The notes below the pieces were generated by a model. The model had not been told where the DNA came from, did not search any database, and saw only the letters and a list, made by a program, of their open reading frames with translations. From Photorhabdus khanii NC19 (GTDB lineage Bacteria; Pseudomonadota; Gammaproteobacteria; Enterobacterales; Enterobacteriaceae): a DNA stretch of 64,000 bases. Of this stretch, positions 23,844 to 39,184 are shown piece by piece; the stretch's first letter is position 1; each line of letters opens with the position of its first letter. Both the position numbers and the translations under genes were made by a program. The stretch is taken from positions 1,005,701-1,069,700 of the forward strand of contig NZ_AYSJ01000002.1 in assembly GCF_000517265.1 (NCBI RefSeq), read 5' to 3'.

Positions 23844-25187
23844 ATGTCCGGTTTTGAAGCAAATTTTGATGGTTTGGTTGGCCTGACTCATCATTACGCA
23901 GGGCTTTCAGTCGGCAATAAAGCGTCTATACATAACCGGGACCGGGTGTCTAACCCACGTAAAGCTGCGCTGCAAGGGCTGATGAAAATGAAAGCGCTGG
24001 CTGATGCGGGGTTTGTTCAGGGGGTACTGCCACCACAACAACGTCCCAATATTCCAGCCTTACGTAATTTAGGTTTTACGGGCAGTGATGAGCAAATACT
24101 TGATAAAGCAGCTAAATATTCTCCAGTGTTATTATCAAAACTGAGTTCTGCTTCATCAATGTGGACAGCAAACGCGGCAACAGTGTCACCTTCGGCGGAT
24201 AGTGCTGACCAACGGGTACACTTCACCGTAGCAAATTTAAATAACAAACTGCACCGTTTGCTGGAAGTCGAAACGACGGCAGCCGCGTTAAAAGCCACTT
24301 TTGCTAATCAAAACCATTTTGTCCATCATCAGGCGCTTGTGCAGCATGAAAATTTCGGTGATGAAGGAGCGGCAAACCATAATCGCCTCGGTGGTGAATA
24401 TGATAGGCCCGGCGTACAGGTGTTTGTCTATGGCCGTAGCGCGTTTCGTGGCAGTCCGGTGCCCCAGCGCTATCCCGCACGACAAACACTGGAAGCAAGT
24501 GAAGCCATTGCACGGTTGCATCAGCTTAATCCGGCACAAACCGTTTTTGTGCAGCAAAACCCGGTCGCCATTGACAGCGGTGTTTTCCATAATGATGTGA
24601 TTGCGGTGAGCAACCGAAATGTTCTTTTTCATCATCAGCATGCTTATCTGGATCAGGATCAGGCTTTGACTGAAATTAAGCAGAAAATGGCGGTGTTGGG
24701 ACATGATTTTATCTCAATTGAAGTCTCTTCCGAGCAGGTCAGTATCAAAGATGCGGTCGCTTCTTATCTCTTTAATAGTCAATTACTGAGTAAAGCTGAT
24801 GGAAAAATGGTGATTGTTGTGCCGGAAGAGTGCCGCCAGAGTGCGATTGTCTGGGCCTATTTACAGTCACTGACTGCGCAAACGTCATCACCCATTAATG
24901 AAGTATGCGTTTTTGATCTGCGGGAAAGTATGCGTAATGGCGGCGGCCCGGCGTGTTTACGTCTGAGGGTTGTGCTGAATGACGCTGAATTTAGCGCGGT
25001 TAATCCTGCGACAATAATGAATACCCGGCTTTATGATCGCCTGACTCAATGGATAGAACAGCACTATCGTGATGAGTTATGTGCTGGCGAACTGGTTGAT
25101 CCCCAATTACTTCGTGAAGTTTATACCGCTCTGGATGAGCTTACGCAGATCCTGAATTTAGGGTCGATCTATGAATTTCAACGCTAA
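23844..25187 (+). CDS. astB: N-succinylarginine dihydrolase AstB
   Basis: Hydrolyses N2-succinylarginine to succinylornithine, releasing two ammonia and CO2 (second AST step). The length of 447 equals E. coli AstB. It starts with the family block [24 protein letters not shown] and has the catalytic Cys in [12 protein letters not shown] (Cys371 here). An AGAGGT ribosome binding site precedes the ATG. It is placed between astD and astE as in enterobacteria. Confidence 0.95.
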
Positions 25188-25199
25188 ATTGGAGCAGAT

Positions 25200-26192
25200 A
25201 TGGATCTGTTAACTTTATTGCTTGAAAAGAAACTTGCCAGCCACCTGACGTTTCCAGAAACAATTAATGCGAGTTGGCTGGCAGAAGGAGTATTGCAACT
25301 TATTCCCCATGTTCCCCATGAAGGAAAAAACCGGTCACTGGTGATTTCTGCCGGTATTCACGGTAATGAAACCGCGCCCATTGAAATACTGATTCAGTTA
25401 CTGGCACAGTTGGCAGATGGCACGTTACCGTTAAAAAATAACCTGTTGATTATCTTTGGTAACTTGCCGGCTATGCGGGAGAATCGACGTTATCTGCATA
25501 ACGATTTGAATCGCATGTTTGGTGGCCGTTATCTGGATTTTCCTCTGGGAAATGAGCGATCACGCGCGGCTGAACTTGAAAATATTGTCAGTTGCTTTTT
25601 TGCTGAACCTTCAGTGTCCTCTGCAAATATGCGCTGGCATATTGATCTGCATACCGCTATACGTGCTTCTCATCATGAACAATTTGCATTGTTACCTGCT
25701 CAAAGCCGTCCATTTTCTGCTGAATTTATGCAATGGTTGAATGACAGCGATATTGATGCGCTTGTTTATCATCGTTCAAAAGCAGGGACTTTCAGCCATT
25801 TTCTGCATGAAAAGTTTGGGGCGGATAGCTGTACGATGGAAATGGGTAAGGCGATGCCTTTTGGTAGAAATGATTTAACAAGGTTCCAAAAAATTACGGA
25901 TTCTCTTTATGGTTTAATCTCTTTATCACAAATAGCCGCACGAGTTAAACCTGAGCTGAAACATTACCAGGTAATGGATGCCATTATTAAGAGCGATGAA
26001 AGTTTCCAGCTTCATATTCCCGCAGATACCATGAACTTCACTGAATTGCCGGAGGGATTTGAAATCGCCAGCCAGCATGATCACCATTGGAAAATTAAAT
26101 TCCCGGCAAAATTTATTTTATTTCCTAATGCTGAGGTTGCTAATGGATTACGAGCGGGATTGTTACTTGCCTTAAATGAAAAAAATAATTAA
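25200..26192 (+). CDS. astE: Succinylglutamate desuccinylase AstE
   Basis: Last AST enzyme: releases succinate and glutamate from N-succinylglutamate. It is a zinc carboxypeptidase-like protein of the AstE/aspartoacylase family. Zinc-ligand motifs are visible as GIHGNETAPIE (near residue 53) and the HIDLHTA block (near 148). The RENRRYLHNDLNRMFGG segment is typical of the family. Its 330 residues compare with 322 in E. coli. It starts 12 bp after astB with GGAG upstream. Confidence 0.93.
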   Translation: MDLLTLLLEKKLASHLTFPETINASWLAEGVLQLIPHVPHEGKNRSLVISAGIHGNETAPIEILIQLLAQLADGTLPLKNNLLIIFGNLPAMRENRRYLHNDLNRMFGGRYLDFPLGNERSRAAELENIVSCFFAEPSVSSANMRWHIDLHTAIRASHHEQFALLPAQSRPFSAEFMQWLNDSDIDALVYHRSKAGTFSHFLHEKFGADSCTMEMGKAMPFGRNDLTRFQKITDSLYGLISLSQIAARVKPELKHYQVMDAIIKSDESFQLHIPADTMNFTELPEGFEIASQHDHHWKIKFPAKFILFPNAEVANGLRAGLLLALNEKNN

Positions 26193-26291
26193 ATAAAATA
26201 AACTCCATTTTCTTCCTGAAGCAGTGACAACTTCTTCTTCAGAAAGATTCAGCGGTCTGTTTCTTCGCTTTAATGACGGACGGGTATTATC

Positions 26292-27737
26292 ATGATACAA
26301 AATAATAAAAATCAACAAAACATTTCGGCAGAAAAATGCTCTGGTTCGCAAGAGCTTCATCGGGGATTGAGTGCACGCCATATTCAGTTAATTTCCATTG
26401 GCGGTGCTATTGGTACAGGCTTATTTATGGGGTCAGGAAAGACCATTGCCATATCCGGTACATCGATCATTATTACCTATGCCATTGTGGGTTTTTTTGT
26501 CTATATGGTGATGCGGGCGATGGGGGAATTACTTCTCACTAAACTGAATTATCGCTCTTTTGCTGATTTCGTATCTGATTATTTAGGGACGAAAGCGAGT
26601 TTTTTTCTCGGCTGGACTTACTGGATGAGTTGGATTGTATCCTGTATTGCTGATGTTGTGGTTTGTGGCGGATATATTCAATATTGGTTCCCTGGCGTCT
26701 CTCTTTGGGTACCTGCGTTTTTGACGCTGGGTTTACTTTGTACTTGCAATCTTCTTTCTGTGCGATTATTTGGCGAAGCTGAATTTTGGTTCGCCATTAT
26801 TAAGGTGATTGCTATTTTAGCGTTGATTATGGTGGGTATCGGTATGGTGATGATAGGTTGGCAATCACCGGATGGTATGACCGCATCTATTAATAATTTG
26901 ACTGATCCATCAGTATTTCTGCCGAATGGTATTTTTGGTTTTTTTGCCGGTTTCCAGATAGCGATTTTTTCTTTCACGGGTGTTGAACTGGTGGGGACCA
27001 TGACAGCGGAAACAAAAGATCCGGAAAAGATATTGCCGAAAGCGATCAAGAATATTCCGATAAGAATCATTATTTTCTATATTTTCTCCATGCTAAGCAT
27101 CATTGCGGTGACTTCCTGGGGAAGGATTTCATCTGAAACCAGTCCTTTTGTGACCTTATTTGCTCTGGCTGGTTTGCCTGCCGCCGCCGCTATTGTTAAC
27201 TTTGTTGCATTAACGTCGGCAATGTCCTCTGCTAACAGTGGGTTATACGCCTGTACGCGCATGCTTTATGGCTTATCAACGGAAAGAAATGCGCACCGGA
27301 AATTTAAAATTCTTTCCCGTAATACAGCGATTCCTGTACATAGCCTGATATTTTCCTGCTTCTGCATGATCATTGGCACATCACTTTTATTTATCATGCC
27401 GGATGTCATGAGATTATTTATTATTGTATCAACCGTTGCCTCTATTATGGTTATTTATAGCTGGTGTATGATATTGATTGCTTATTTAGCTTATCGTAAA
27501 CATCATCCTGATTTGCATAAGTGTTCAATATTTAAGATGCCTCTGGGGGTGCCAATGACCTGGATAACGCTGGTTTTTTTCGCTCTGACTGTCGTCGTTA
27601 TGGTTTTTGATCCGGATACATTGGTTGCGCTCTGTGGCACCCCTTTATGGTTTATTGCGTTAAGTATTTTGTGGCGCATGAAGAAGAAAAATGAGGCGCA
27701 GGAAGAACAATGTTCGAGGAGTCACCAGTTATTTTAA
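26292..27737 (+). CDS. Amino-acid permease of the CycA type (APC superfamily)
   Basis: An inner-membrane amino-acid:proton symporter of 481 residues with about 12 membrane segments. It aligns from end to end with E. coli CycA (D-alanine/D-serine/glycine permease): GGAIGTGLFMGSGKTI in TM1, VMRAMGELLL, FGEAEFWFAIIKV, FFAGFQIAIFSFTGVELVGT-AETKDPEK, SSANSGLYA-TRMLYGL, YRKHHPDLH-SIFKMPLG. It lies 99 bp after astE on the same strand and probably supplies or belongs to the AST unit, although no arginine-specific feature is visible. The substrate could be small neutral D/L amino acids, as for CycA, or another amino acid linked to catabolism. Confidence 0.85.
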   Translation: MIQNNKNQQNISAEKCSGSQELHRGLSARHIQLISIGGAIGTGLFMGSGKTIAISGTSIIITYAIVGFFVYMVMRAMGELLLTKLNYRSFADFVSDYLGTKASFFLGWTYWMSWIVSCIADVVVCGGYIQYWFPGVSLWVPAFLTLGLLCTCNLLSVRLFGEAEFWFAIIKVIAILALIMVGIGMVMIGWQSPDGMTASINNLTDPSVFLPNGIFGFFAGFQIAIFSFTGVELVGTMTAETKDPEKILPKAIKNIPIRIIIFYIFSMLSIIAVTSWGRISSETSPFVTLFALAGLPAAAAIVNFVALTSAMSSANSGLYACTRMLYGLSTERNAHRKFKILSRNTAIPVHSLIFSCFCMIIGTSLLFIMPDVMRLFIIVSTVASIMVIYSWCMILIAYLAYRKHHPDLHKCSIFKMPLGVPMTWITLVFFALTVVVMVFDPDTLVALCGTPLWFIALSILWRMKKKNEAQEEQCSRSHQLF

Positions 27738-28245
27738 AGTAAGATTGCATTTTCTATTGAAAGCTATTTTACAAAAGATATAAATAGTTATTGGACTTTA
27801 TTATCAAAATGGTTTTTTTATAAAAATAACTGTAGATCGAGTATTTAGATTATTATGGAATAAAAAAATAATGATTATTCTATTGTGTGTATAATATTAT
27901 GATAATTTGCGATGGTTGGTTTTGCATATTATTGAAATTATTCTTTTTTTATCTTATTGTTATCTTGTTTTTTAATATTTCAATAAGTTTTTTTTAACTT
28001 GGTCATTCTTGAATTTGTTTTTTCTGATTGTGTCATCTATCTTTATTTAAAGGTGGGTGATAATGAGAGAGGCTAACGAAATAATCTTATATTAATGGCA
28101 TAATAAGTTTTATAGTGGAATAGTGTTTTAAATTATTATGTGCTATTTAGCGCCATAGTATATTCTAACATTAATTTATTAATGATGACAATGAAGTTTA
28201 TCTTTTATTGGGTGTAAAAACTATTAATAACACAAGGATAACAAT
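27738..28245. other. AT-rich region upstream of the first secreted paralogue
   Basis: About 500 bp with no supported gene. Short stretches, for example the TTTATTTAA-type block near 28043 and the AT-rich leader just before the start codon, recur upstream of the two other paralogues (32400-32930 and 35290-35688). The repeated unit therefore appears to include its promoter region. Confidence 0.45.
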
Positions 28246-28875
28246 ATGAGTTTTAATAAAAAAGTTTTTCTTATTTCCCCTTTTTTACTCATTATGAGTA
28301 GTTTTAGTATGGCATGTAAAACAGATCCGGAAGTAGAAAAAGTCATAATCAAAAATAATCTGCAAGATACCAAAGTTATGTCTATGTATAAAAGTTGCAC
28401 GCTTACAGTCGATGTAAACACGCCGAATAAAATTACGCTAATAAATAAAAAAGCTTTAAATCTTGATAGTAATTCAGAAAAAGCAATGTATTGGTATAGA
28501 GGGATGGGTATAAATGAATATAAAGTATTTGATCATAATAAATATACAAAAGTTCCTTGCGTCACAGAAGAAAGTTTCTGTGGAATAGCCCCCGAATATA
28601 CCTATGCGAAAAGTTATCTGACAAATAAAAACCCAGGAGTTGTTATTGAGTTCAGTACGATAGAACCGGGGTGGTTATATAATGATTTTACAGTTAAAAA
28701 TAAGTGTCAAATTAAAGCTGAAGGTGGAGGAACATACGGGCTTGGTAAAACAGGAACATCGGCAAGTTGTGATGTGGAATATAAGAAACTTGGAATAGGA
28801 AATGTATTTAATAAGTGGTTGGAAAAACCAACAAAAATAGACGTTATAATTTCTTATGTGGTATTAGCAAAATAG
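28246..28875 (+). CDS. Small secreted cysteine-rich protein of unknown function, paralogue 1 of 3
   Basis: 209 residues with a clear Sec signal peptide (MSFNKKVFLISPFLL..SSFSMA, cleavage just before Cys24). It is not a convincing lipoprotein because the -3 residue is Ser. The mature part has six conserved cysteines in the family (ACK, SCT, PCV, FCG, KCQ, SCD), enough for three disulfides, so a periplasmic or exported location is likely. Blocks shared with the paralogues are KVMSMY, YWYRGM (Arg85), CGIAP-YTYA, VIEFST (135-138), WLYN-F and the glycine-rich AEGGGTYGLG (Glu159). The order Arg in YRG, then a F-S-T strand, then a late Glu resembles the R-S-E layout of ADP-ribosyltransferases, but this is speculative. 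I do not recognise a named family. Confidence 0.8.
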   Translation: MSFNKKVFLISPFLLIMSSFSMACKTDPEVEKVIIKNNLQDTKVMSMYKSCTLTVDVNTPNKITLINKKALNLDSNSEKAMYWYRGMGINEYKVFDHNKYTKVPCVTEESFCGIAPEYTYAKSYLTNKNPGVVIEFSTIEPGWLYNDFTVKNKCQIKAEGGGTYGLGKTGTSASCDVEYKKLGIGNVFNKWLEKPTKIDVIISYVVLAK

Positions 28876-28900
28876 GTTTTAAACGATATTCTCTAAATAT

Positions 28901-28932
28901 ATAGCACCGAATGTTGATAACTTCGGTGCTAT
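28901..28932 (+). terminator. Hairpin after secreted paralogue 1
   Basis: An 11-bp perfect stem (ATAGCACCGAA / TTCGGTGCTAT) with a 10-nt loop lies 26 bp after the stop codon. It has no T-run, so its efficiency is doubtful. The core AGCACCGAA / TTCGGTGCT recurs after paralogue 2 with a proper T-run, which identifies this as the same element. Confidence 0.6.
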
Positions 28933-29442
28933 GCCTGTGCAGCAGGTGATGTACAGTTACACAGAATTCTTGGTCGCCATTGACAGCTCAATCTTTCGCT
29001 AATGCAGAGATATTCAGTTTTTATCGTACTGGATGCTCTCTTTATTCCATTTCATGAATAAGTTCCTATATGTGTCAGTAAATTTTAATTAATTATTGTG
29101 ATTGTTCTATTTTGTTAATGTTAACTCTATAATTTATTTCTGGTCGATAACTGATGATTTACGATGGTGAATTACAAGTTAATTATAAATAACATTTTGT
29201 TTAATCTATATATTCAATATATAAATATATATATGCATTATTAATATTTTATTAAATTATTAATTAATTGCTAACTAAATATATTGAAATATATAATTAA
29301 TTACCCACAGAATAACTATTCTGAGGGAGGTGCTCATAGTGAGTGAAATTCAGAGATCCACCGGGGACGTTCGAGGGGTCATACTGTTTTCAACGCTATG
29401 GCACGGACTTTCGATTAACAATAACAACAATAGCGAGAGCAT
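28933..29442. other. AT-rich region, then a GC-rich cassette border with a possible leader frame
   Basis: From 28933 to about 29320 the DNA is very AT-rich without genes. At about 29325 the composition changes sharply. A strong ribosome binding site (GAGGGAGG, 29323-29330) precedes a GTG at 29339 that opens a 61-codon frame ending at 29524, overlapping the next gene's start in another frame. The frame has no recognised family. It may be a short leader peptide coupling translation to the cassette, a remnant of a former gene, or chance. Confidence 0.35.
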
Positions 29443-30327
29443 ATGCAACAAATCAGCATCTCACACAGCCACCGTCTGGTTCAATCCGAGGCAGAGTTAT
29501 TCGATCTTATTCTCACCGAAGTGACTAACACGCCGCATTCGGATCTCGTCATTATGGCAGGGCATTTCATGCTCTTCCTTGATGAAGCCCAAGGATGCCT
29601 CGTACCGGGGGTCATTGAAGAAAATACTTCGCCCATGCGAGAAAAAATTGAACGGCGCGTAGGAATCTTTCCTGGATACACCTGGGAACTTGGTGTTCGA
29701 ATCGCAGAGCAGCTTAATAACCAATTCAAAGCGATTAAATTTCTGCTGCTCATTAACGATTGGCAATATGTTTCACTCTCCAGTGGACCTGCATCCGAAC
29801 TAAGAAGTGTTTATTATGAGAAATTCTCCGCGCTGCCGGATTCGTATAGCTCCGTTTTGAAACGTAGCGGGCAATTCTCTGAGCAAAACATGCTCGCCAG
29901 CCGAAAGCATCCTCTTGTCTATCCGGAAACCTGGCTGAAATACCGGTTCCAGAAAAGCGCCGATAAGTTAGTAAAAGCGGGGCTGTTAAATCGTCGCGTT
30001 CTCGATAATGGCCCTGATGCCGGAACCGAAATTTCCCTTGTGGACGAAAATGGTAACTATAAGCCTCTTATTACTTGCGGTGTTACCGGATGTGCGGGAG
30101 AGATCACTGAGATGATCTCTGAGGTCTACAAGGCGCAACATCGTCTTCTGGTGATCTTTGCTCCCGGCGAATGCTTTCAACCTGTCAAAACAGGGGTAAG
30201 CACTGCGCTCTCCCTGTATGGGCTTTCGGGTATGAAGGTGATCGTTGCGGATCCCGGTGGAAGCGGAGAAATGCAGACACAGGAGATCTATTCGAAGCTT
30301 GTTAACGTTGCCGTCTTCACTTCCTGA
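29443..30327 (+). CDS. Protein of unknown function, first gene of the cysteine desulfurase/methyltransferase cassette
   Basis: 294 residues, no signal peptide or membrane segment, so probably cytoplasmic. I do not recognise the family. Visible features are a first half with alternating hydrophobic strands (SDLVIMAGHFMLFLDE, FKAIKFLLLINDWQYVSL), a cysteine pair in ITCGVTGCAGEITE (CX4C, near residue 210), and a third cysteine in IFAPGECFQP, followed by a strand-loop with glycines (IVADPGGSGEMQ). The alternating strands and helices suggest a Rossmann-like alpha/beta fold. With a cysteine desulfurase 12 bp downstream, these cysteines could carry or receive sulfur, but that is inference. The ATG at 29443 has a GAGAG 4 nt upstream. 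GC content and codon use are clearly higher than in the flanking island genes, which suggests transfer as a unit with the next two genes. Confidence 0.8.
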   Translation: MQQISISHSHRLVQSEAELFDLILTEVTNTPHSDLVIMAGHFMLFLDEAQGCLVPGVIEENTSPMREKIERRVGIFPGYTWELGVRIAEQLNNQFKAIKFLLLINDWQYVSLSSGPASELRSVYYEKFSALPDSYSSVLKRSGQFSEQNMLASRKHPLVYPETWLKYRFQKSADKLVKAGLLNRRVLDNGPDAGTEISLVDENGNYKPLITCGVTGCAGEITEMISEVYKAQHRLLVIFAPGECFQPVKTGVSTALSLYGLSGMKVIVADPGGSGEMQTQEIYSKLVNVAVFTS

Positions 30328-30339
30328 TGGGGAGTTATT

Positions 30340-31494
30340 ATGAATGTTAATGAAAACCCGAATGGCATCATCTATCTGGATCATTGTGCCACGACACCAT
30401 GTTTTCCTGAGGTTGCCGACATCATGCGGTTCTACATGGAGCATGAATTTGGTAATTCTTCTTCTGCTCATGTGATGGGGCGTCGTGCCCGGCATGCGAT
30501 TGAGAACGCAGCCCAACAAGTTGCGTCTCTCATCGGTGCCCGTCCAGAGGAGATTGTTTTTACATCAGGCGCTACAGAAGCCAATAACATGGCTTTTTTC
30601 TCGAGTTTTGCTCACAACGAATGCGCTCCTGCGGGGGCGCTACTTTGTCCCATCGACCATAAATCTGTGTTACTTGTGGGTAAAGAGTTGGCTCGCCGGG
30701 GGCTTGCCGTTGAGTACCTGCCGGTTGCCGCTAATGGTCGGGTACAAGTGGAAGATGTCATGACCAAACTGACTGCCGACACCCGTATTGTCAGCATTGC
30801 TCATGTGAATTCTGAGCTAGGCACCGTTCAGCTGGTGGATGAGATCGCCGCGACCACGCGTCGGTCAGGCGCTTGGCTACATGTGGATGCCGTCCAGTCT
30901 GTCGGCAAAATTCCCGTGAACGTCAAGGAAACTGGCATTGATATGCTTTCATTTTCCGCTCACAAACTACGGGGGCCGAAAGGAATTGGGGCACTTTTCG
31001 TTGATAGAAGTATCGCGGCGCATTTGCGGCCCTTCATCTATGGTGGTGGTCAGAATCATTTGCGCAGCGGCACCTTGCCAACGCCGTTAATTGTAGGGTT
31101 TGGCCTTGCGTGCCAGAGGGTTCAGTCAACCCTCATGCAACGTCAAGCAAAAGTCAATGCATTGAGAGACTATTTCATTACTCGTCTTCATCAAAGAGTG
31201 CCGGATGCAGTATTGAATACCGATATCTCTTGCAGTTCCCCATACATCGTGAATGTTCAGTTCGAAGGTATCGCTTCGGAGGCGCTAATCTCTGGGTTGC
31301 ATCAGGTGGCTATATCGTCAGGTTCAGCCTGTAACTCCGCGGAACTACAGCCTTCGCACGTGCTCACAGGCATTGGCTTGAGCTCGGCTCAGGCCAATGC
31401 GTCGGTTCGGTTCTGTTTTGATCCGGATCTCGACAATGCGGTGCTGGATACTGCAATCGAACATCTTGTCTTCCGACTCAATTCTATTCGTTAG
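30340..31494 (+). CDS. Cysteine desulfurase of the IscS/NifS family
   Basis: A PLP-dependent enzyme that takes sulfur from cysteine as a persulfide and leaves alanine. All key parts are present in 384 residues: N-terminal YLDHCATTP, FGNSSSAH, FTSGATEANN, the PLP lysine in SAHKLRGPKGIGAL (Lys209), and the catalytic cysteine in SSGSACNSAELQPSHVL (Cys331) in the long loop typical of group I enzymes. It is not the housekeeping iscS, because no iscR, iscU or hscBA lies nearby. Its partners are an unknown protein upstream (12 bp) and a methyltransferase downstream (11 bp). The sulfur probably goes to a dedicated product or nucleic acid modification instead of general Fe-S assembly (inference). Confidence 0.9.
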   Translation: MNVNENPNGIIYLDHCATTPCFPEVADIMRFYMEHEFGNSSSAHVMGRRARHAIENAAQQVASLIGARPEEIVFTSGATEANNMAFFSSFAHNECAPAGALLCPIDHKSVLLVGKELARRGLAVEYLPVAANGRVQVEDVMTKLTADTRIVSIAHVNSELGTVQLVDEIAATTRRSGAWLHVDAVQSVGKIPVNVKETGIDMLSFSAHKLRGPKGIGALFVDRSIAAHLRPFIYGGGQNHLRSGTLPTPLIVGFGLACQRVQSTLMQRQAKVNALRDYFITRLHQRVPDAVLNTDISCSSPYIVNVQFEGIASEALISGLHQVAISSGSACNSAELQPSHVLTGIGLSSAQANASVRFCFDPDLDNAVLDTAIEHLVFRLNSIR

Positions 31495-31505
31495 GAGTAC
31501 TACCT

Positions 31506-32330
31506 ATGACTATGCAAACTTCCCTTTCAAGTACTGGCAGTGGCTTTTACGAACGGGCTTTCGGTAGTTTCTCTGCCGAAGCGGTATCCGAGGTACGCAA
31601 AGAGACCTATGGCGAAGACTTGGGACAGAACAACTGGTCCCCTGTTGACGAGTTTAGACAGTTCTCGCAATGGCTTCAATTATCCGACCGCTCGCATGTG
31701 CTGGATGTATGCAGTGGATCTGGGGGGCCGGCCCTGTTCCTGGCGAGGAACAACGGTTGTAGGGTGACGGGTGTTGATATTCATCCTGACGGCCTTCTTA
31801 CTGCCAGGCAACTTGCGGCGGATTTCGGGCTGAAAGACCAAAGCAACTTCGTTGACAGTGATGTGCGTCAGCCTCTGCCATTTCCTGACGGCACTTTTGA
31901 CGCGTTATGGTGCATCGATTCTGTCATTCATATTCCGGATCGATTGGCCCTGTTGCGCGAATGGTGCCGGCTACTGAAACCGGGCGGGCGGTTCTTGTAT
32001 ACCGATCCTACTCTGGTAACAGGGATGCTCAGTAAAGACGAAATAGTGTTACGTGGTATGCCGGGTTATTTCCTTTACACCCCGATTGGATTGAACGAGA
32101 GTTTAATCAGCGAGGCGGGGCTTTGCCTCGAAAGGCAGGTGGATCTCACTCAAAGCGTTGTTGAGCTTAGTGAGCGTTGGCGTGCCGGGCGCGAGAAGCG
32201 CAGGGAGCAATTCACCGCAATGGAGGGTGAAGAAGCGTTCGAGCGTATGCAAAACTTCTTGTCTACCACGCGGTTAATCTCAATCGAACGAAGGATGTCG
32301 CGCGTGGCCTTTATCGGTTATCGTCCGTGA
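31506..32330 (+). CDS. SAM-dependent class I methyltransferase
   Basis: 274 residues with SAM-binding motif I VLDVCSGSGGPALFLA (near residue 64), acidic motif VTGVDIHPDG, and LPFPDGTFDALWCIDSVIHIPDR followed by LLKPGGRFLYTDP. The N-terminal YGEDLGQNNW and the C-terminal RMSRVAFIGY resemble small-molecule methyltransferases acting on amines such as glycine derivatives and phosphoethanolamine. The substrate here is unknown. It is the third gene of the cassette, 11 bp after the desulfurase, and is closed by a perfect terminator. Thiol or sulfur methylation is possible given the neighbour. The ATG at 31506 has GGAG in reach. Confidence 0.88.
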   Translation: MTMQTSLSSTGSGFYERAFGSFSAEAVSEVRKETYGEDLGQNNWSPVDEFRQFSQWLQLSDRSHVLDVCSGSGGPALFLARNNGCRVTGVDIHPDGLLTARQLAADFGLKDQSNFVDSDVRQPLPFPDGTFDALWCIDSVIHIPDRLALLREWCRLLKPGGRFLYTDPTLVTGMLSKDEIVLRGMPGYFLYTPIGLNESLISEAGLCLERQVDLTQSVVELSERWRAGREKRREQFTAMEGEEAFERMQNFLSTTRLISIERRMSRVAFIGYRP

Positions 32331-32338
32331 TATCTTTT

Positions 32339-32371
32339 ACCTCTTTGCCCTATTGGGCAAAGAGGTATTTT
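32339..32371 (+). terminator. Intrinsic terminator closing the desulfurase/methyltransferase cassette
   Basis: A perfect 12-bp stem (ACCTCTTTGCCC / GGGCAAAGAGGT) with a 4-nt TATT loop is followed by ATTTT, starting 8 bp after the methyltransferase stop. Confidence 0.85.
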
Positions 32372-32930
32372 ACATATTTTATGTGAATAAATACGAACCT
32401 GTTTACTCGTAGAGTCATTATGTTGTACTTATTATGTGAAGCCGGGTTTAATTTAAAGTAAATGTAGAGATTGTTCCAAAATATATTTTTAATGTTATCG
32501 GGATATGTCTGTATTTTCTTTAATTATATTTGGGATTTTCAGAGTTTATCTAAATGATTATTCGATTTTATTATCATTGCAATATGTTTTTAGACCATTG
32601 CAGAATAAAAAATTAGATAATTATTCCATTCTGTCTATTTGTGAAATTATTTTGAATTTATGTTGTTAATATATTATTTTTATGTTGTCTTGATATATAA
32701 ATGAAATATTTTTTATTTTAATCATATTGGAATTTGTTTTTGTTTTTTATGATTTAATAACATATCTTTATTTAAGTCAGGTCATAGCAAGAGAGAATGA
32801 TGTAATTGGTTAATTTATTATATGTCATCTGTAATGATATGTTTTAAAATAAGTATATTAACAACAATGAAATTTATTTTTATTCCATTGAACGTTAAAC
32901 TTCTTAATTAAATAACGCAAGGAGATAAGT
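32372..32930. other. AT-rich region upstream of secreted paralogue 2
   Basis: No supported gene. A segment near 32428 (ACTTATTATGTGAAGCCGG) has a close counterpart near 35291 upstream of paralogue 3, and further short matches run to both start codons, ending in a shared leader (ACGCAAGGAGATAAGTATG against AAGCAAGGAGATAAATATG). The promoter should lie here. Confidence 0.5.
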
Positions 32931-33563
32931 ATGATTTTGAATAAAAAAGTTTTCCTGATTTCCCCTTTTTTACTTGCTATAAGTAGTTTTAGTATGGCGG
33001 CATGTAAAACAGATCCGCAGATAGAGAAAATAATCACTAAAAATGGACTGGAAAATACCAAAGTGATGTCTATGTATAAAAATTGCACACTTTCAGTCTT
33101 GGCAAATACACCCAATAAAGTGACATTAGTCAATAAGAAAGCGGCAAAACGTGATGATGAAGCAAAAAATGCGATGTACTGGTATAGAGGAATGGAAATA
33201 AAAGAATATAAAGCATTTCACCAGAATAAGTATAAAAGCCTTCCTTGTGTTAAAGGAGAAAGTTTTTGTGGAATTGCTCCCCAATATACCTATTCGCAAG
33301 GTTATCTGACAAATAAAAAACCTGGAGTTGTTATTGAGTTTAGTACAATAGAACCGAAATGGTTATATAATGAATTTACAACTAAACATAAGTGTCAAGT
33401 TAAAGCTGAGGGAGGAGGCACATACGGGCTTGGTGTGACAGGAACATCAGCGAGTTGTGATGACCAATACAAGAAACTTGGAATAGGGAATGTATTTAAT
33501 AAGTGGTTGGGAAAACCAGCAAAAATAGATGTTATAATTTCTTATGTGTTATTGGCAAAATAA
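32931..33563 (+). CDS. Small secreted cysteine-rich protein of unknown function, paralogue 2 of 3
   Basis: 210 residues with signal peptide MILNKKVFLISPFLLAISSFSMAA, cleaved near the first cysteine. It is very similar to paralogue 1 over its full length: same six cysteines, KVMSMYKNC, YWYRGM, CGIAPQYTY, VVIEFSTIEP-WLYNEFT and KAEGGGTYGLG-TGTSASC. Differences are spread evenly, as expected for an older duplication under constraint. A GGAG ribosome binding site lies 8 nt before the ATG. It is the middle copy, between the GC-rich cassette and the toxin-like pair. Function is unknown; a secreted effector or toxin is a reasonable guess. Confidence 0.8.
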   Translation: MILNKKVFLISPFLLAISSFSMAACKTDPQIEKIITKNGLENTKVMSMYKNCTLSVLANTPNKVTLVNKKAAKRDDEAKNAMYWYRGMEIKEYKAFHQNKYKSLPCVKGESFCGIAPQYTYSQGYLTNKKPGVVIEFSTIEPKWLYNEFTTKHKCQVKAEGGGTYGLGVTGTSASCDDQYKKLGIGNVFNKWLGKPAKIDVIISYVLLAK

Positions 33564-33620
33564 TATTTAATATCTTTTTTAGTTGTATGATTGTCAGTTT
33601 TAAATGATTTTTCTAAATAC

Positions 33621-33654
33621 AGCACCGAATATTCATGATTTCGGTGCTTTTTTA
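33621..33654 (+). terminator. Intrinsic terminator after secreted paralogue 2
   Basis: The stem AGCACCGAA / TTCGGTGCT is followed by TTTTTTA. It is the same core hairpin as after paralogue 1 (28901), here with a functional-looking T-run. Confidence 0.8.
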
Positions 33655-34019
33655 TTGGTGATGGATTTATATATGTTTGGTTTTCTCTTAAATAACATTT
33701 TATTTACTTATTAGAAGAAATGGCTTTGTTTGTAATAGGCGTTTTGGAAAATGGCATTTAAAATATTTCTGATCGTTTTATATTTATCATTCCTGTACTT
33801 AAGTATCCATTCCCGTCTCGTCAGGTTAAATAAGATTTGACTATCGGGATTTTGTCTTGTCCCTTGTTCAACACTTTGCTATTGTATAATTGATGTGGCT
33901 ATTTTTTATGCGGCTGAGTTATGTTTTAATTTTTAATGAGTTTAGCTGTATGGGTGATAGAGAATAGTTACTACAACAACTCGGTGATGCGTTAGTGAAT
34001 TATTGAAGGAGGTTTCACC
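33655..34019. other. Intergenic region upstream of the toxin-like pair
   Basis: About 365 bp of AT-rich sequence with no supported gene. It ends in a strong ribosome binding site (GAAGGAGG, 34006-34013) 7 nt before the ATG at 34020. Confidence 0.5.
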
Positions 34020-34889
34020 ATGACATATAAAAAATACTGCCCCTCTTGGGAAGGTTATATGGGAGATTTCCTAAGAGGTCATGTTGGGGATAATCAATTA
34101 AAACCCCAGCATGAGTTCTTTGATGCTATTGGTCTTGAAAAGCAGTTAAGAGAGAATACAATGTATATTGCATTGCTATCATTGGAAGAGGCAAAAAGTG
34201 TTTTGGAAGATATTGATTCTCCAAAACCAAAAAGTCCGTTTATGAAGCGTGTGTTCTCGGTTGCGGATCCAATATCACCCTATGCAGGTAACATACGTGA
34301 TGCTTTTGATTTTACAAATGTAGTGAGAGAATTTAAGAGATTAGGGATTAAAGCGACAGAGTATGTTGGTAAAAATGGGGAGAAATATATTAAAATATCA
34401 GGTTATGCCGGATTCAGGAAAATTATTACTGCTTCACGATACGGCGCTTCTAACATGAAGATGATATCTATGGGGATTGGGCAGCAGGGAATAAATAGTG
34501 GCATAGTTAAAGGATTAAAATTCGGTATATTATTTTCCGCAGCTTATAGAACTGTTGAACTTATATTTAAGGATGAATACACACTGGCTGATTTTTTAGG
34601 TAATATTGCTGTAGATCTGGCTAAGGCAGCAGTAGCAGCCTTTGTTTCTTGGGCTACGGGGGTTTTTCTTTCAGCTTTGTTTGTGACAGGTGCTAGCGTA
34701 ATTGTTGTGGCTGGTGCTATGCTTCTTGTGGGAGTTTTAACGGTATATACACTTGATATTATAGATAAGAAATTTAAAGTTAGTGAAACTGTAATTAATT
34801 TACTCAAAAAAGAAATGGAGAGAAAACTAAAAGCACCAGAAGCTAATTTCAATCAATTTCTTTATAACTGGGGGCGCTATGGGAAATAG
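34020..34889 (+). CDS. Putative membrane-active toxin with hydrophobic C-terminal hairpin
   Basis: 289 residues. The N-terminal ~140 are soluble and charged. The KYIKISGYAGFRKIITASRYGASNMKM segment and the long hydrophobic stretch from about residue 160 to 245 (glycine- and alanine-rich, at least two membrane helices around FLGNIAVDLAKAAVAAFVSW and LSALFVTGASVIVVAGAMLLVG) resemble enterobacterial membrane-permeabilising effector domains and the YafU type of inner-membrane protein. The gene overlaps the next one by 11 bp and the pair looks like a toxin with its immunity protein. No secretion system or long delivery polypeptide is fused to it here, so it could be an orphan effector module. The functional call is inference. 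Confidence 0.6.
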   Translation: MTYKKYCPSWEGYMGDFLRGHVGDNQLKPQHEFFDAIGLEKQLRENTMYIALLSLEEAKSVLEDIDSPKPKSPFMKRVFSVADPISPYAGNIRDAFDFTNVVREFKRLGIKATEYVGKNGEKYIKISGYAGFRKIITASRYGASNMKMISMGIGQQGINSGIVKGLKFGILFSAAYRTVELIFKDEYTLADFLGNIAVDLAKAAVAAFVSWATGVFLSALFVTGASVIVVAGAMLLVGVLTVYTLDIIDKKFKVSETVINLLKKEMERKLKAPEANFNQFLYNWGRYGK

Positions 34890-35280
34890 AAAAAAAGTTA
34901 TACATATCATCGGCGCTTTTGCTATTTTTCTTTTAACGTTATCAGGTTTCTTTTTGACCGGAGAAAATTTAATTTCTTTAGTTAAAATGGATGAGAAAAT
35001 AACATTTTCAAGTAGTGTTTTTATGATATTTTTTTCTTTTCCTTTGCTTTCATACCTTATGATTTTTGTTATTTTTTTTAATATAACGAACCGTTGCCCA
35101 AAACATCATGATAGTTTTATTAATTATTTTGGGTTTATTGCTATTGCTTCAATTTTTCTAAGTTTCCCAACATCTTTATACGTGAATTATAAATTAAGAA
35201 GTGATAATTATTTGGTATGTGAAAGAATATCCTGGATGTCCCCTAATACTTATGTAAAAGATATTAAGCTATGTGATTAA
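34879..35280 (+). CDS. Small integral membrane protein, probable immunity partner (resembles DUF1240)
   Basis: 133 residues with three or four membrane helices (VIHIIGAFAIFLLTLSGFFL, VFMIFFSFPLLSYLMIFVIFF, YFGFIAIASIFLSFPTSLYV) and a short C-terminal tail with two cysteines (LVCERISWMSPNTYVKDIKLC). The tail pattern is what I remember of the DUF1240 family, common in Photorhabdus and Xenorhabdus. The start codon lies within the last codons of the toxin-like gene, so translation is coupled. A membrane immunity protein against a membrane toxin is the simplest reading. Confidence 0.6.
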   Translation: MGNRKKVIHIIGAFAIFLLTLSGFFLTGENLISLVKMDEKITFSSSVFMIFFSFPLLSYLMIFVIFFNITNRCPKHHDSFINYFGFIAIASIFLSFPTSLYVNYKLRSDNYLVCERISWMSPNTYVKDIKLCD

Positions 35281-35688
35281 TATTATTGAACTTACTATGT
35301 GAAACCGGCAAGTTTACGGTCAGCTATAATCGTAATCTTATGAGGTCTTTTATATTATTATGATATAAAAAAACAGTAGCTATTACTTTATTATAGATAA
35401 CATGTAAATATTGATAAATAATTTATTTTATATGTTATTGAAATTGTGTTGTTTTTAAATTTTCTCTGTCTTGTCTCTCATATATTTAAATGGATTTTTT
35501 TAATTTAAATATTCTACAATTTGTGTTTTTTGATTTAATAATCTATCTTTATTTTATAACAATGTTATGTATTAGGTAATTATATTCTTATGAAGTTTAT
35601 ATTTATATGTGTTTTATAAAGATGAAGTCTATATTATTCCATTTTGGATTAAATAAATAAATAAATTAAATCAAGCAAGGAGATAAAT
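35281..35688. other. AT-rich region upstream of secreted paralogue 3
   Basis: About 410 bp, no supported gene. It shares short blocks with the region upstream of paralogue 2 (near 32428), including ACTATGTGAAACCGG, the TATCTTTATTT block near 35545 and the GCAAGGAGATAA leader. The three copies therefore carry related control regions. Confidence 0.45.
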
Positions 35689-36348
35689 ATGCATTTGAAT
35701 AAAAAAATCTTCCTAATTTCCCCTTTTTTACTCGCTATGAGTAGTTTTAGTATGGCATGTATAAAAGATCCGGAGGTAATTAGGAATCAGGTAAAAGACG
35801 CAATAATTAAAAATGGATTGGAAAAGACCAAAGTGATGTCTATGTATGAGAATTGCAAACTTAGAGCGAATGTAAAAGATTTTGAAAAGAGAAGGGATAT
35901 TGAGTTAAATAATACTTCTACTTATAATCAAGACAATGATGCAGTAAACGCGAAGTATTGGTATAGAGGGATGAGTAGAGATGAATATATATTATTGGAT
36001 CGCAATGGATATAATAAAATCCCTTGTGTTGAAGAAGAAAGCTATTGCGGAATTGCACCTCAATATACTTATGCAAAAACGTATCCGAAAAGTGTAAAAC
36101 CAAAGATTACTATAGAATTCAGCACAGAAGGACTTGGTTGGTTATATAATGAATTCACAACTAAAAATAAATGTCAAACTAAAGCAGAAGGTGGAGGGAC
36201 ATATGGGCTTGGCAGAACGGGAACATCGGGTGATAAAGTAAGTAGTTGTGTTGCTGGATATAAGGTAGGGGTTGAATTTAACAACTGGTTATCAGGACAT
36301 AAAATACAATCTCAAGTTTCTTATGTATTATTACCCAAAAATCCGTAA
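35689..36348 (+). CDS. Small secreted cysteine-rich protein of unknown function, paralogue 3 of 3
   Basis: 219 residues, the most diverged copy. Signal peptide MHLNKKIFLISPFLLAMSSFSMA before Cys24. It keeps the family frame: VMSMYENC, KYWYRGM, CGIAPQYTYA, IEFST, WLYNEFTTKNKCQTKAEGGGTYGLG-TGTS and a C-terminal SYVLLP. It has a ~10-residue insertion after the second cysteine (around VKDFEKRRDIELNN) and an extra -DKVS- before the last cysteine. A strong GGAG ribosome binding site lies 8 nt before the ATG. It lies last in the island and converges with hicB. Confidence 0.78.
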   Translation: MHLNKKIFLISPFLLAMSSFSMACIKDPEVIRNQVKDAIIKNGLEKTKVMSMYENCKLRANVKDFEKRRDIELNNTSTYNQDNDAVNAKYWYRGMSRDEYILLDRNGYNKIPCVEEESYCGIAPQYTYAKTYPKSVKPKITIEFSTEGLGWLYNEFTTKNKCQTKAEGGGTYGLGRTGTSGDKVSSCVAGYKVGVEFNNWLSGHKIQSQVSYVLLPKNP

Positions 36349-36423
36349 AAATAGCTGTAATATTTGTTCTGCAACTCATGTTGTTATTAACCTTAAATGT
36401 GCGCAGATAAATATAAACGCGAA

Positions 36424-36460
36424 GTGCCGCAGATATGCGGCACAATTAAATTGTTTTTTG
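36424..36460. terminator. Hairpin between paralogue 3 and hicB (convergent genes)
   Basis: A 7-bp perfect stem GTGCCGC / GCGGCAC with a 6-nt loop lies between converging genes and abuts the hicB stop codon. A T-run (ATTGTTTTTTG) follows on the plus strand but about 9 nt away, so termination strength is uncertain. Confidence 0.5.
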
Positions 36461-36859
36461 TAGTTCATTACGCGCAGCCTGAGCCAGAAAACCGCTTCTG
36501 CTGCTATATTCAGGATGGTCATGTACAATGGTATCAATACGATGTAATAAACGATGTGGCAAGGTAATGTTGATCCGTTCGGCTCTGCCATCGAATTTAT
36601 CCATATTGACATCAATTAAGAACCATTGACCACCAACATATTCACAAATATTTTCAGCGAGATGTTCTTGCATTGTTCTTGCCTTGGGGAGTTCTGATTC
36701 ATTTTGCGCTAATAATTCAAAATGTGTCTCAATAGCACTTTTTGCATCTTGCCAGGTTTCTTCAAGTGTATCGCCAGCAAAATAACAGCCGGATACATCA
36801 GGAAACCAGCCGCTTGCGCTGCCATCTGTATCAACTTCAATAAAAGCGGGATATAACAT
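36446..36859 (-). CDS. hicB: HicB-family antitoxin, apparently orphan
   Basis: 137 residues. The N-terminal half is a typical HicB partial RNase H-like fold (MLYPAFIEVDTDGSASGWFPDVSGCYFAGDTLEETWQDAKSAIETHFELLA). The C-terminal half is a ribbon-helix-helix type DNA-binding domain (RINITLPHRLLHRIDTIVHDHPEYSSRSGFLAQAARNEL). HicB normally neutralises the mRNA interferase HicA encoded just upstream. No intact hicA is present: only a short stump with a HicA-like C-terminus lies 35 bp upstream (see 36895-36972). A GGAGA ribosome binding site precedes the ATG. The protein could persist as an autoregulator or protect against HicA toxins from elsewhere. Confidence 0.88.
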   Translation of the reverse strand: MLYPAFIEVDTDGSASGWFPDVSGCYFAGDTLEETWQDAKSAIETHFELLAQNESELPKARTMQEHLAENICEYVGGQWFLIDVNMDKFDGRAERINITLPHRLLHRIDTIVHDHPEYSSRSGFLAQAARNELQKTI

Positions 36860-36894
36860 ATTTTTTCTCCTGATTTGAGTATTTTTGGTTTACT

Positions 36895-36972
36895 TCATTG
36901 AAGATCCGCATCTTTCATAATCTGGCGCAATCTTTCAATTTTATCTCTTTCCGGGGATAAAAATGAAAATAA
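36895..36972 (-). pseudogene. Possible 3' remnant of hicA
   Basis: About 24 codons are open on the minus strand just upstream of hicB and end in SPERDKIERLRQIMKDADLQ. HicA toxins usually end in a pattern such as HPKKDL-GTLRSIMKQAGL, so the spacing of the basic residues, the I/L-R-x-I-M-K-x-A-x-L tail and the place directly before hicB fit a truncated hicA. The 5' part, including the catalytic His, is gone; the pta terminator takes its place. This is a weak similarity over a short length. Confidence 0.35.
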
Positions 36973-37006
36973 AAAGGCCGAACCCAGTGAAACACAGGAT
37001 TCAGCC
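36965..37006 (-). terminator. Intrinsic terminator of ackA-pta
   Basis: Read on the minus strand: GGCTGAATCCTG, loop, CTGGGTTCGGCC (a 12-position stem with two G-U pairs and one mismatch), then TTTTTATTTT. It lies 36 bp after the pta stop. Confidence 0.8.
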
Positions 37007-37042
37007 TTTATCAGCCATTAATCTGCTATGGATAAGAAACGG

Positions 37043-39184
37043 TTACGCTTCTCCCTGTGCTGATTGAATCGCAGTCAGTGCAACGGTGTAAACAATATCG
37101 TCTACTAAAGCGCCACGGGACAAATCGTTAACCGGTTTACGCATACCTTGCAGCATTGGCCCGATAGAAACCAGATCCGCAGAACGTTGTACTGCTTTAT
37201 AAGTGGTGTTACCGGTGTTCAGATCAGGGAAGATGAACACGGTGGCTTGACCGGCAACCGGTGAGTTTGGCGCTTTGGATTTCGCCACATCTGCCATGAT
37301 AGCGGCGTCATATTGCAATGGACCATCAATGATCAGGTCTGGACGTTTTGCTTGCGCCAGACGGGTTGCTTCACGTACTTTTTCAACATCACTGCCCGCA
37401 CCGGAGTTACCGGTAGAGTAGGAGATCATAGCAACACGAGGCTCGATACCAAATGCTTTAGCAGAATCCGCCGATTGAATGGCGATTTCAGACAGTTGTT
37501 CAGCCGTCGGATCTGGGTTGATTGCACAGTCGCCGTAAACCAGAACTTGTTCTGGTAGCAGCATAAAGAATACGGAGGATACCAGCGAGCTACCCGGTGC
37601 AGTTTTGATTAACTGCAATGGTGGACGGATCGTGTTGGCTGTGGTGTGTACCGCACCGGAAACCAAGCCGTCAACTTCGCCCTGTTCCAGCATCAAGGTA
37701 CCCAGAACAACGTTGTCTTCCAGTTGTTCGCGTGCGACGACTTCGGTCATGCCTTTGTTTTTACGCAGTTCAACTAGACGTGGGACATAGCGCTCACGTA
37801 CAGCAACCGGATCAACAATTTCAATACCGGTACCCAGTTCTATTCCCTGAGCCGCCGCAACACGACGGATCTCTTCTGGATCGCCCAGCAGCACACAGCG
37901 CGCAATACCCCGGTCAGCACAGATAGACGCCGCTTTCACGGTACGAGGCTCATCACCTTCAGGCAGAACAATCCGCTTACCTGCTTTGCGTGCCAGCTCA
38001 GTGAGTTGATAACGGAATGCCGGTGGCGACAGGCGGTGTGGGCGTTCAGAGTTCGCTGTCAGCGAGTCGATCCACTCTTTGTTGATGTGTTGTGCGACGT
38101 AGTTTTGCAGTTTTTCGATACGTTCATGGTCATCTGCCGGTACTTCCAGGCTGAAACTTTGCAGGCTCAGGGAAGTCTGCCAGGTGTTGGTATCAACCAT
38201 AAAGACGGGCAGGCCAGTGCCGAAAGCACGTTCACACAGTTGCTTAATAGGTTCATCAATGGCATAGCCGCCGGTTAGCAGAATTGCACCGATTTCAACG
38301 CCATTCATAGCCGCCAGACAAGCTGAAACCAGAACATCTGGACGATCAGCAGAAGTCACCAGCAGGGATCCCGGACGGAAGTGCTCCAGCATATGTGGAA
38401 TGCTGCGTGCACAGAAGGTCACGGATTTCACCCGGCGGGTTTTAATTGCGCCTTCGTTGATAATGCGGGCGTTCAGGTGTTTTGCCATATCGATTGCACG
38501 CGTCGCAATCAGATCAAAATTCCACGGAATGCAGCCAAGGATTGGCAATGGGCTATTTTTAGCCAGCTTGTTTGGATCGATGTTAGCGACGATGGCTTTT
38601 GAGGATTCGTCAAAGATCTCTGACAGATCAGGACGGGTACGGCCTTGATCATCAACCGGCGCATTCAGTTTGTTAATAATAACACCGGTAATATTCTGGT
38701 TTTTGCTGCCGCCAAATTCAGCACGAGCCAGTTCAACGCGTTCTTTCAATTGCTCCTGGGAATCGTTACCCAACGCCAGTACGAACACAATTTCAGCGTT
38801 CAGTGTCTTGGCGATGTCATAGTTCAGCGATTGGGAGAACGGATGTTTACGGGTTGGAACCAAACCTTCAATCAGGATAACTTCTGCGTCTTTGGTGTTT
38901 TCGTGGTAAAGGGCCACGATCTTTTCCATCAGGACATCTTTCTGATTCGTGGTCAGTAAAGATTCCACATAGGCCATATCCAGTGGTTCAGCGGTTTTAA
39001 TGCTGGAATGAGAACGGATGATTGCCGTGGTTTGATCTTGTGCGCCACAGCAACGGGATTGGGCGATGGGTTTGAAAACACTCAGGCTGACGCCTTTCTG
39101 CTCCATTGAGCGGATAACACCCAAACTCACACTGGTCAGGCCGACGCTGGTGCTGGTAGGGATCAACATAATTGTGCGGGACAC
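37043..39184 (-). CDS. pta: Phosphate acetyltransferase Pta
   Basis: Interconverts acetyl-CoA and acetyl phosphate, the first half of the overflow route to acetate. The 713 residues are the long enterobacterial form (714 in E. coli). It has an N-terminal P-loop/BioD-like domain ([17 protein letters not shown]), a central DRTGG-type regulatory region, and a C-terminal catalytic phosphotransacetylase domain with [53 protein letters not shown] and [16 protein letters not shown]. It lies 69 bp downstream of ackA in the same transcription unit and is followed by a terminator. Confidence 0.97.

Follow-up and report, generated by a model that had tools for sequence, protein, structure and literature searches.

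What does a compact three-gene cassette contribute to Photorhabdus khanii NC19, a member of a genus of insect-killing bacteria? The cassette lies in a 64,000-nucleotide stretch of this genome (contig NZ_AYSJ01000002.1, positions 1,005,701 to 1,069,700; hereafter the window), and its genes, named here A, B and C, are arranged as follows:

29443..30327, + strand: gene A, 294 amino acids (aa), with invariant His41, Cys212, Cys217 and Cys244
30340..31494, + strand: gene B, cysteine desulfurase of NifS/IscS/DndA type, 384 aa, with Lys209 and Cys331
31506..32330, + strand: gene C, S-adenosylmethionine (SAM)-dependent methyltransferase of small-molecule type (from Pfam and NCBIfam), 274 aa

The cassette hints at an undescribed route to sulfur-containing small molecules. 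A previous interpretation based on the DNA letters (the sequence-only reading) had described three tightly spaced genes as a candidate for an undescribed sulfur-linked set. The coordinates agree with this description (gaps of 12 bp between A and B and 11 bp between B and C), and the proposal of such a set is upheld; its core is the A-B pair, and the main new point is a connection to transfer RNA (tRNA). As a whole, that interpretation is partly supported.

Genes A and B form a conserved pair

A contig scan for A relied on six peptide patterns of the window protein, by which distant members are missed. It yielded 47 loci: seven in Photorhabdus, four in Xenorhabdus, two each in Burkholderia and Pseudomonas, one each in Pandoraea and Brucella, 27 in Streptosporangiales, and one each in Paenibacillus, Halalkalibacter and Caldalkalibacillus. 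Two Priestia plasmids bring the set to 49. In 47 of these 49 loci, B begins -4 to 134 nt behind A. The exceptions are P. thracensis, which has a frame change that breaks A, no B and a shortened C, and a contig that stops inside A. The expectation that all three genes recur together thus stood for A and B, but C is present in just 13 of the 49 loci. Evolutionary distances of A and B are correlated (r 0.97, 42 rows), which is weak evidence since shared descent gives the same result.

B is a class-V pyridoxal phosphate (PLP) enzyme (PF00266, E 8.5e-73), and its catalytic Lys209 and Cys331, already pointed out in the sequence-only reading, are kept in all 48 aligned B proteins. It shares its fold family and catalytic residues with IscS, NifS and DndA, but scores below the cut-offs of the NCBIfam families listed (NifS, 345.8 against 530.75 bits; DndA, 344.6 against 480; IscS, 326.7 against 643.2) and is accompanied by A instead of isc, nif or dnd genes. 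No isc or suf partners occur among the open reading frames (ORFs) at 24000-38000, as judged by eye with domain scans of eight and five proteins, in line with the earlier claim. The assignment of C was likewise borne out: it matches PF08241 (E 1.3e-20), and its best NCBIfam match is a sarcosine/dimethylglycine N-methyltransferase, scoring 79.8 bits where the cut-off is 550. All three genes are conserved beyond chance (dN/dS 0.06-0.12, ten pairwise comparisons per gene).

Gene A has a synthetase-like predicted fold and invariant cysteines

A had been called unrecognised, and database searches concur. The sole Pfam match of the window protein, PF18830 (LPD16), reaches 21.1 bits, under the 27-bit cut-off, which is passed by A of two congeners (29 and 27.4 bits); NCBIfam gave zero matches, and sequence searches of the PDB no credible hit (best E 0.22 and 0.04). 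LPD16 is listed among domains of conjugative elements, its function not being stated in the portion available of that source (PMC5512222). Across the 42 aligned A proteins, His41, Cys212, Cys217 and Cys244 are invariant, which confirms the predicted Cys-X4-Cys pair (Cys212-X4-Cys217) and the further cysteine; a fourth cysteine of the window protein, Cys52, is not conserved.

Structure models of the window A (pLDDT, the model's own confidence score, 88.8; 42-row alignment) and the Brucella A (88.2; 25-row alignment, with many rows common to both) have the same best structural matches, namely the catalytic-core fold of class I aminoacyl-tRNA synthetases (arginyl-tRNA synthetase, ArgRS; cysteinyl-tRNA synthetase, CysRS) and of MshC. 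A differs from these enzymes in having neither HIGH nor KMSKS motifs (each 0/42), no anticodon domain within its 294 aa, and no profile similarity. The PP-loop motif SGGXDS is also missing from all 42 proteins. These models predict a synthetase-like fold for A but do not demonstrate that it is a synthetase. Predicted strands 206-211 and 235-239 are neighbours and precede Cys212/217 and Cys244, respectively, so placed that the three cysteines may meet at the active edge of the protein. These conserved cysteines could accept sulfur.

A distant homologue (genome G063, locus L064, 7260-8105; 23.6% identity over 267 aa) retains the GH, NDWQ and CAGE stretches and makes A part of a wider family.

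tRNA genes precede A in several lineages

ARAGORN detected 13 tRNAs in the 775,091 bases of the 49 loci, and 12 of them share the strand of A and end 40-485 nt before its aligned start. Four tandem copies of tRNA-Cys with a period of 145 bp lie on a Priestia megaterium plasmid (L009 7442-7951) and two on its sister plasmid; two tRNAs belong to Paenibacillus, and one each to Halalkalibacter, Caldalkalibacillus, Pandoraea and Brucella. In addition, a remnant locus (L065, genome G256) carries a tRNA ahead of an 82-aa piece of A; being 92% identical to the Pandoraea tRNA, it is not independent. A comX-type pheromone set lies downstream on the L009 plasmid, and in Halalkalibacter (L024 7642-8000) a second, degraded tRNA-Cys-like stretch, whose first 36 bases are 89% identical, is found closer to A.

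The linked tRNAs fold as cloverleaves with real covariation. Their bodies are of tRNA-Cys type in the four Bacillota genera and tRNA-Ala-like in the others, which suggests two recruitments; the tRNA label requires two changes on the A tree. All nine distinct rows carry U73, the discriminator of tRNA-Cys, while ordinary tRNA-Ala genes compared at four loci have A73. Position 33, a U in decoding tRNAs, is C in both Paenibacillus copies, Pandoraea and G256 and G in Caldalkalibacillus, and the Brucella tRNA has a six-base anticodon loop. The three Bacillota genomes that were searched also have ordinary tRNA-Cys genes at other places.

Neighbouring genes vary between lineages

Neighbours were counted by ORF clustering with a custom gene caller that is imprecise where GC content is high, and families were checked on representatives. 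Condensation-domain proteins occur in 25 of the 49 loci, carrier proteins in 21, AMP-ligases in 15, a Ddl-like ligase in six, and EamA-type exporters in five plus two. A B12-radical-SAM protein and a Cys/Met-type PLP enzyme are found in three loci each; in Pandoraea (L050), Brucella pecoris (L052) and P. guariconensis (L057) both stand beside A, the former assigned to TIGR04434 in L050. Such neighbourhoods resemble small-molecule modules whose tailoring differs from lineage to lineage. The sequence-only reading had suggested either a sulfur metabolite or a thio-modification; the metabolite suits these neighbours in other phyla, whereas a nucleic-acid thio-modification suits them less. In Burkholderia, the A-B-C genes (L021 and L022, about 6000-14000) sit among trp-like ORFs of the opposite strand, identified by eye from translations.

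A possible sulfur module acting on aminoacyl-tRNA

Our best explanation, which we favour tentatively and as somewhat short of probable, is that A and B constitute a sulfur module acting on aminoacyl-tRNA, with C and other proteins as tailoring enzymes. The cassette would be an accessory biosynthetic module with the A-B pair as its core. B would draw persulfide sulfur from cysteine and presumably pass it to A, a putative sulfur insertase taking a pre-activated aminoacyl ester from tRNA. An ester of this kind comes activated, which would make an ATP site in A unnecessary. The carrier could be a dedicated tRNA in some relatives and would be an ordinary tRNA in Photorhabdus. From a presumptive amino acid, the module would make an amino thioacid or a similar product, which C may methylate; in other lineages, a Ddl-like ATP-grasp ligase or condensation proteins of non-ribosomal peptide synthetase (NRPS) type might couple the product, with EamA proteins as its exporters. 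A sulfur insertase would fit the synthetase-like pocket devoid of ATP motifs, the three invariant cysteines, the obligate desulfurase, and the retention of tRNAs many of which cannot decode.

A bolder form of this proposal is more doubtful. It holds that A-B represents a tRNA-dependent sulfur insertase of a new class, in which the synthetase-shaped A cleaves the tRNA-borne amino acid with desulfurase-derived sulfur, the dedicated non-decoding tRNA of some lineages serves only as a carrier, and the resulting amino thioacids or related antimetabolites are methylated, coupled or exported according to lineage.

Several known systems share parts of this logic. LarE of T. maritima has three conserved cysteines, receives sulfur from the cysteine desulfurase IscS and makes thiocarboxylates (PMC9283937); the three conserved cysteines of A and its desulfurase recall this enzyme, and a thiocarboxylate product of A-B is proposed by analogy. 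LarE, however, has the PP-loop SGGXDS and uses ATP (PMC9283937), while A is devoid of this motif. In PP-loop sulfurtransferases such as LarE and TtcA, three cysteines bind an Fe-S cluster, a role that the three invariant cysteines of A may or may not share. Charged tRNA is used outside translation, as proposed for A, by natural-product enzymes such as cyclodipeptide synthases (CDPSs), AcmF, SbzA and peptide aminoacyl-tRNA ligases (PEARLs), some with synthetase-like folds (PMC12945691, portion available). A-B falls outside the families listed there, and that portion mentions neither a desulfurase nor a tRNA gene for them. In 3-thiaglutamate synthesis (TglB, Cys-tRNA), as far as the available description extends, cysteine from charged tRNA also enters a sulfur-containing small molecule, but this route involves a peptide scaffold and a PEARL enzyme, neither of which is seen in A-B loci. 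Two further candidates were set aside: the 6-thioguanine cluster of Erwinia, given that A has no PP-loop motif, and the Photorhabdus thm cluster for 4'-thiothymidine, which differs in using radical SAM chemistry, a desulfurase not being mentioned in the portion available (PMC12691670). Among the titles listed by searches of an open-access library, none covers an A-B system, subscription papers and supplements lying outside this search.

A number of observations weigh against our proposal. Foldseek matches of A are modest: one lies at E <0.001, the best having E 8.0e-4 and TM score 0.41. Profile comparison gave 1.4% for A against CysRS and 0.1% against ArgRS, while the control, CysRS against ArgRS, gave 98.1%. 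Because this comparison was negative, the kinship of A with synthetases derives solely from the predicted fold, and our confidence was set with this weakened kinship in mind. The three cysteines and the histidine could equally form a zinc site. As for the carrier, a tRNA next to A is missing from 42 of the 49 loci, including all 27 of Streptosporangiales, and the Priestia and Halalkalibacter copies retain U33 and could decode. ARAGORN, Rfam and the RNA model R1 revealed no tRNA of the linked type in the window, and of 14 R1 matches in its own genome (G000, 5.2 Mb; E up to 1e-12), the ten checked are ordinary tRNAs. The distant homologue of G063 has neither B nor C within 15 kb and adjoins a transporter-like ORF. 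Finally, the cassette has no known product. The tRNA-free loci comprise the window, other Photorhabdus, Xenorhabdus, Burkholderia, Pseudomonas and Streptosporangiales; in Burkholderia and Pseudomonas TH31, Rfam and R1 also found no tRNA beside A.

Alternative explanations

The alternative that survives best, itself unlikely, is that A acts like MshC: it would use ATP to activate cysteine or a relative and join it to a small amine, B would remove or supply sulfur later and C methylate, the linked tRNAs being non-catalytic or used only in relatives. Against it, HIGH and KMSKS are missing from 42 of 42 A proteins, and A has nil profile similarity to CysRS; this reading also leaves dedicated tRNAs with lost U33 unexplained.

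Less credible still is a minimal synthetase charging its own tRNA with cysteine, where B would desulfurate the tRNA-bound cysteine or make its persulfide and the charged tRNA would feed ligases or condensation proteins. The predicted fold of A, the Cys-type bodies in four Bacillota genera and the U73 present even in the Ala-type bodies speak for it. On the other hand, A has no ATP motifs, most loci are without tRNA, and an ordinary CysRS, which could do the charging instead, was found in 12 of 12 genomes searched (in two as split or sub-cut-off pieces).

It is improbable that A-B thiolates the tRNA itself, the linked tRNA being the substrate of a thionucleoside modification. A desulfurase, a nucleotide-binding-type fold and tRNA linkage do recall tRNA thiolation pathways, but the anticodon loops of the linked tRNAs are often degenerate, the neighbours are ligases, exporters and NRPS parts, C resembles small-molecule methyltransferases, and A is devoid of the PP-loop motif.

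We consider it very unlikely that A works like a CDPS, with B in a later step. Both would share a class I synthetase-like fold lacking ATP motifs and a link to tRNA, the charged tRNA being the substrate; yet CDPSs are not known to share an obligate desulfurase, and no CDPS is among the 50 matches listed for either A model, which is not an exclusion. The weakest alternative, that the tRNA genes are old island insertion sites linked to A incidentally, draws on islands often flanking tRNA genes where pseudo-tRNAs can arise (PMC3399842, portion available), but sits badly with the 12 of 13 tRNAs that share one position and orientation next to A and have two dissimilar bodies, and with the plasmid on which as many as four copies stand in tandem. 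The Bacillus cereus pseudo-tRNA tRNA-Other resembles the linked tRNAs as a tRNA-like gene outside translation, but the available portion of the same source connects it with an island and with regulation instead of an A-B pair (PMC3399842).

Distribution of gene A

Within the genus, eight of 12 genomes carry A, counting the window's own; none of 46 other sampled genomes of the family does, and one of 39 others in the order has a distant match. The window A is 89-97% identical to that of seven Photorhabdus species. A is preceded by the same genes in the Photorhabdus loci, so the site of the cassette is shared within the genus; neighbours differ in Xenorhabdus and Burkholderia. Wider searches with an A profile gave three hits in 398 genomes of a phylum sample (the own genome, G063 and G256), two in 398 of the class of G475, both already known, and two in 399 of the order of G478, one known and one being the G256 remnant. 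Phage records contained zero matches to A; 18 stretches of viral contigs fit a pattern and none codes for a relative. E. coli genomes held nothing matching 28800-32800. Among plasmids, A was found in the two near-identical Priestia records, and a search with the distant homologue gave zero.

Boundaries and surroundings of the cassette

The cassette is flanked by two structural elements:

29330..29404, + strand: hairpin in the leader, 38 nt ahead of gene A (from RNA folding and a leader alignment)
32338..32367, + strand: intrinsic-terminator-like stem of 13 pairs with a loop of 4, followed by a T run (TTTT)

The start at 29339 given previously falls within the leader hairpin and is not the coding start of A. 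This hairpin was aligned across 12 Photorhabdus and Xenorhabdus leaders; its covariation is weak, with changes on both sides in two of 18 pairs, and 232 of 500 shuffles do as well. Its position corresponds to that of the linked tRNAs in other lineages, but that 29330-29404 hides a tRNA was ruled out by ARAGORN, Rfam and R1, and the hairpin shows little covariation. Of the perfect terminator claimed, the 13-pair stem and the TTTT right behind C stand, but the region has three such sites against 3.8 in shuffles; since this count is not above shuffles, the terminator draws its support from stem length and position. The contrast in composition holds: GC content is 50.7% for the whole cassette (A 48.4%, B 51.1%, C 52.8%) against 29.0% upstream (28000-29338) and 31.1% downstream (32372-36900).

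Three paralogous AT-rich ORFs surround the cassette (28246-28875, 32931-33563 and 35689-36348; 209-219 aa, with signal-like starts). They have no Pfam match, and 18 members occur across seven Photorhabdus loci. The 34020-35280 region encodes a 289-aa, partly hydrophobic protein with no family above cut-off, then a DUF1240 protein (E 1.1e-41); the two genes overlap by a few bases and resemble a two-gene unit.

Biological significance

If the proposed mechanism is true, A would add a new family to the few enzymes that use charged tRNA outside translation, and bacteria would have evolved tRNAs whose only retained role is that of a carrier in making small molecules. This carrier idea is directly testable in the lineages where a tRNA is linked to A. 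Moreover, A and B, together with the tRNA in some hosts, would provide a genetic handle on sulfur metabolites yet to be described in Photorhabdus, Xenorhabdus, Burkholderia, Bacillota and Streptosporangiales.

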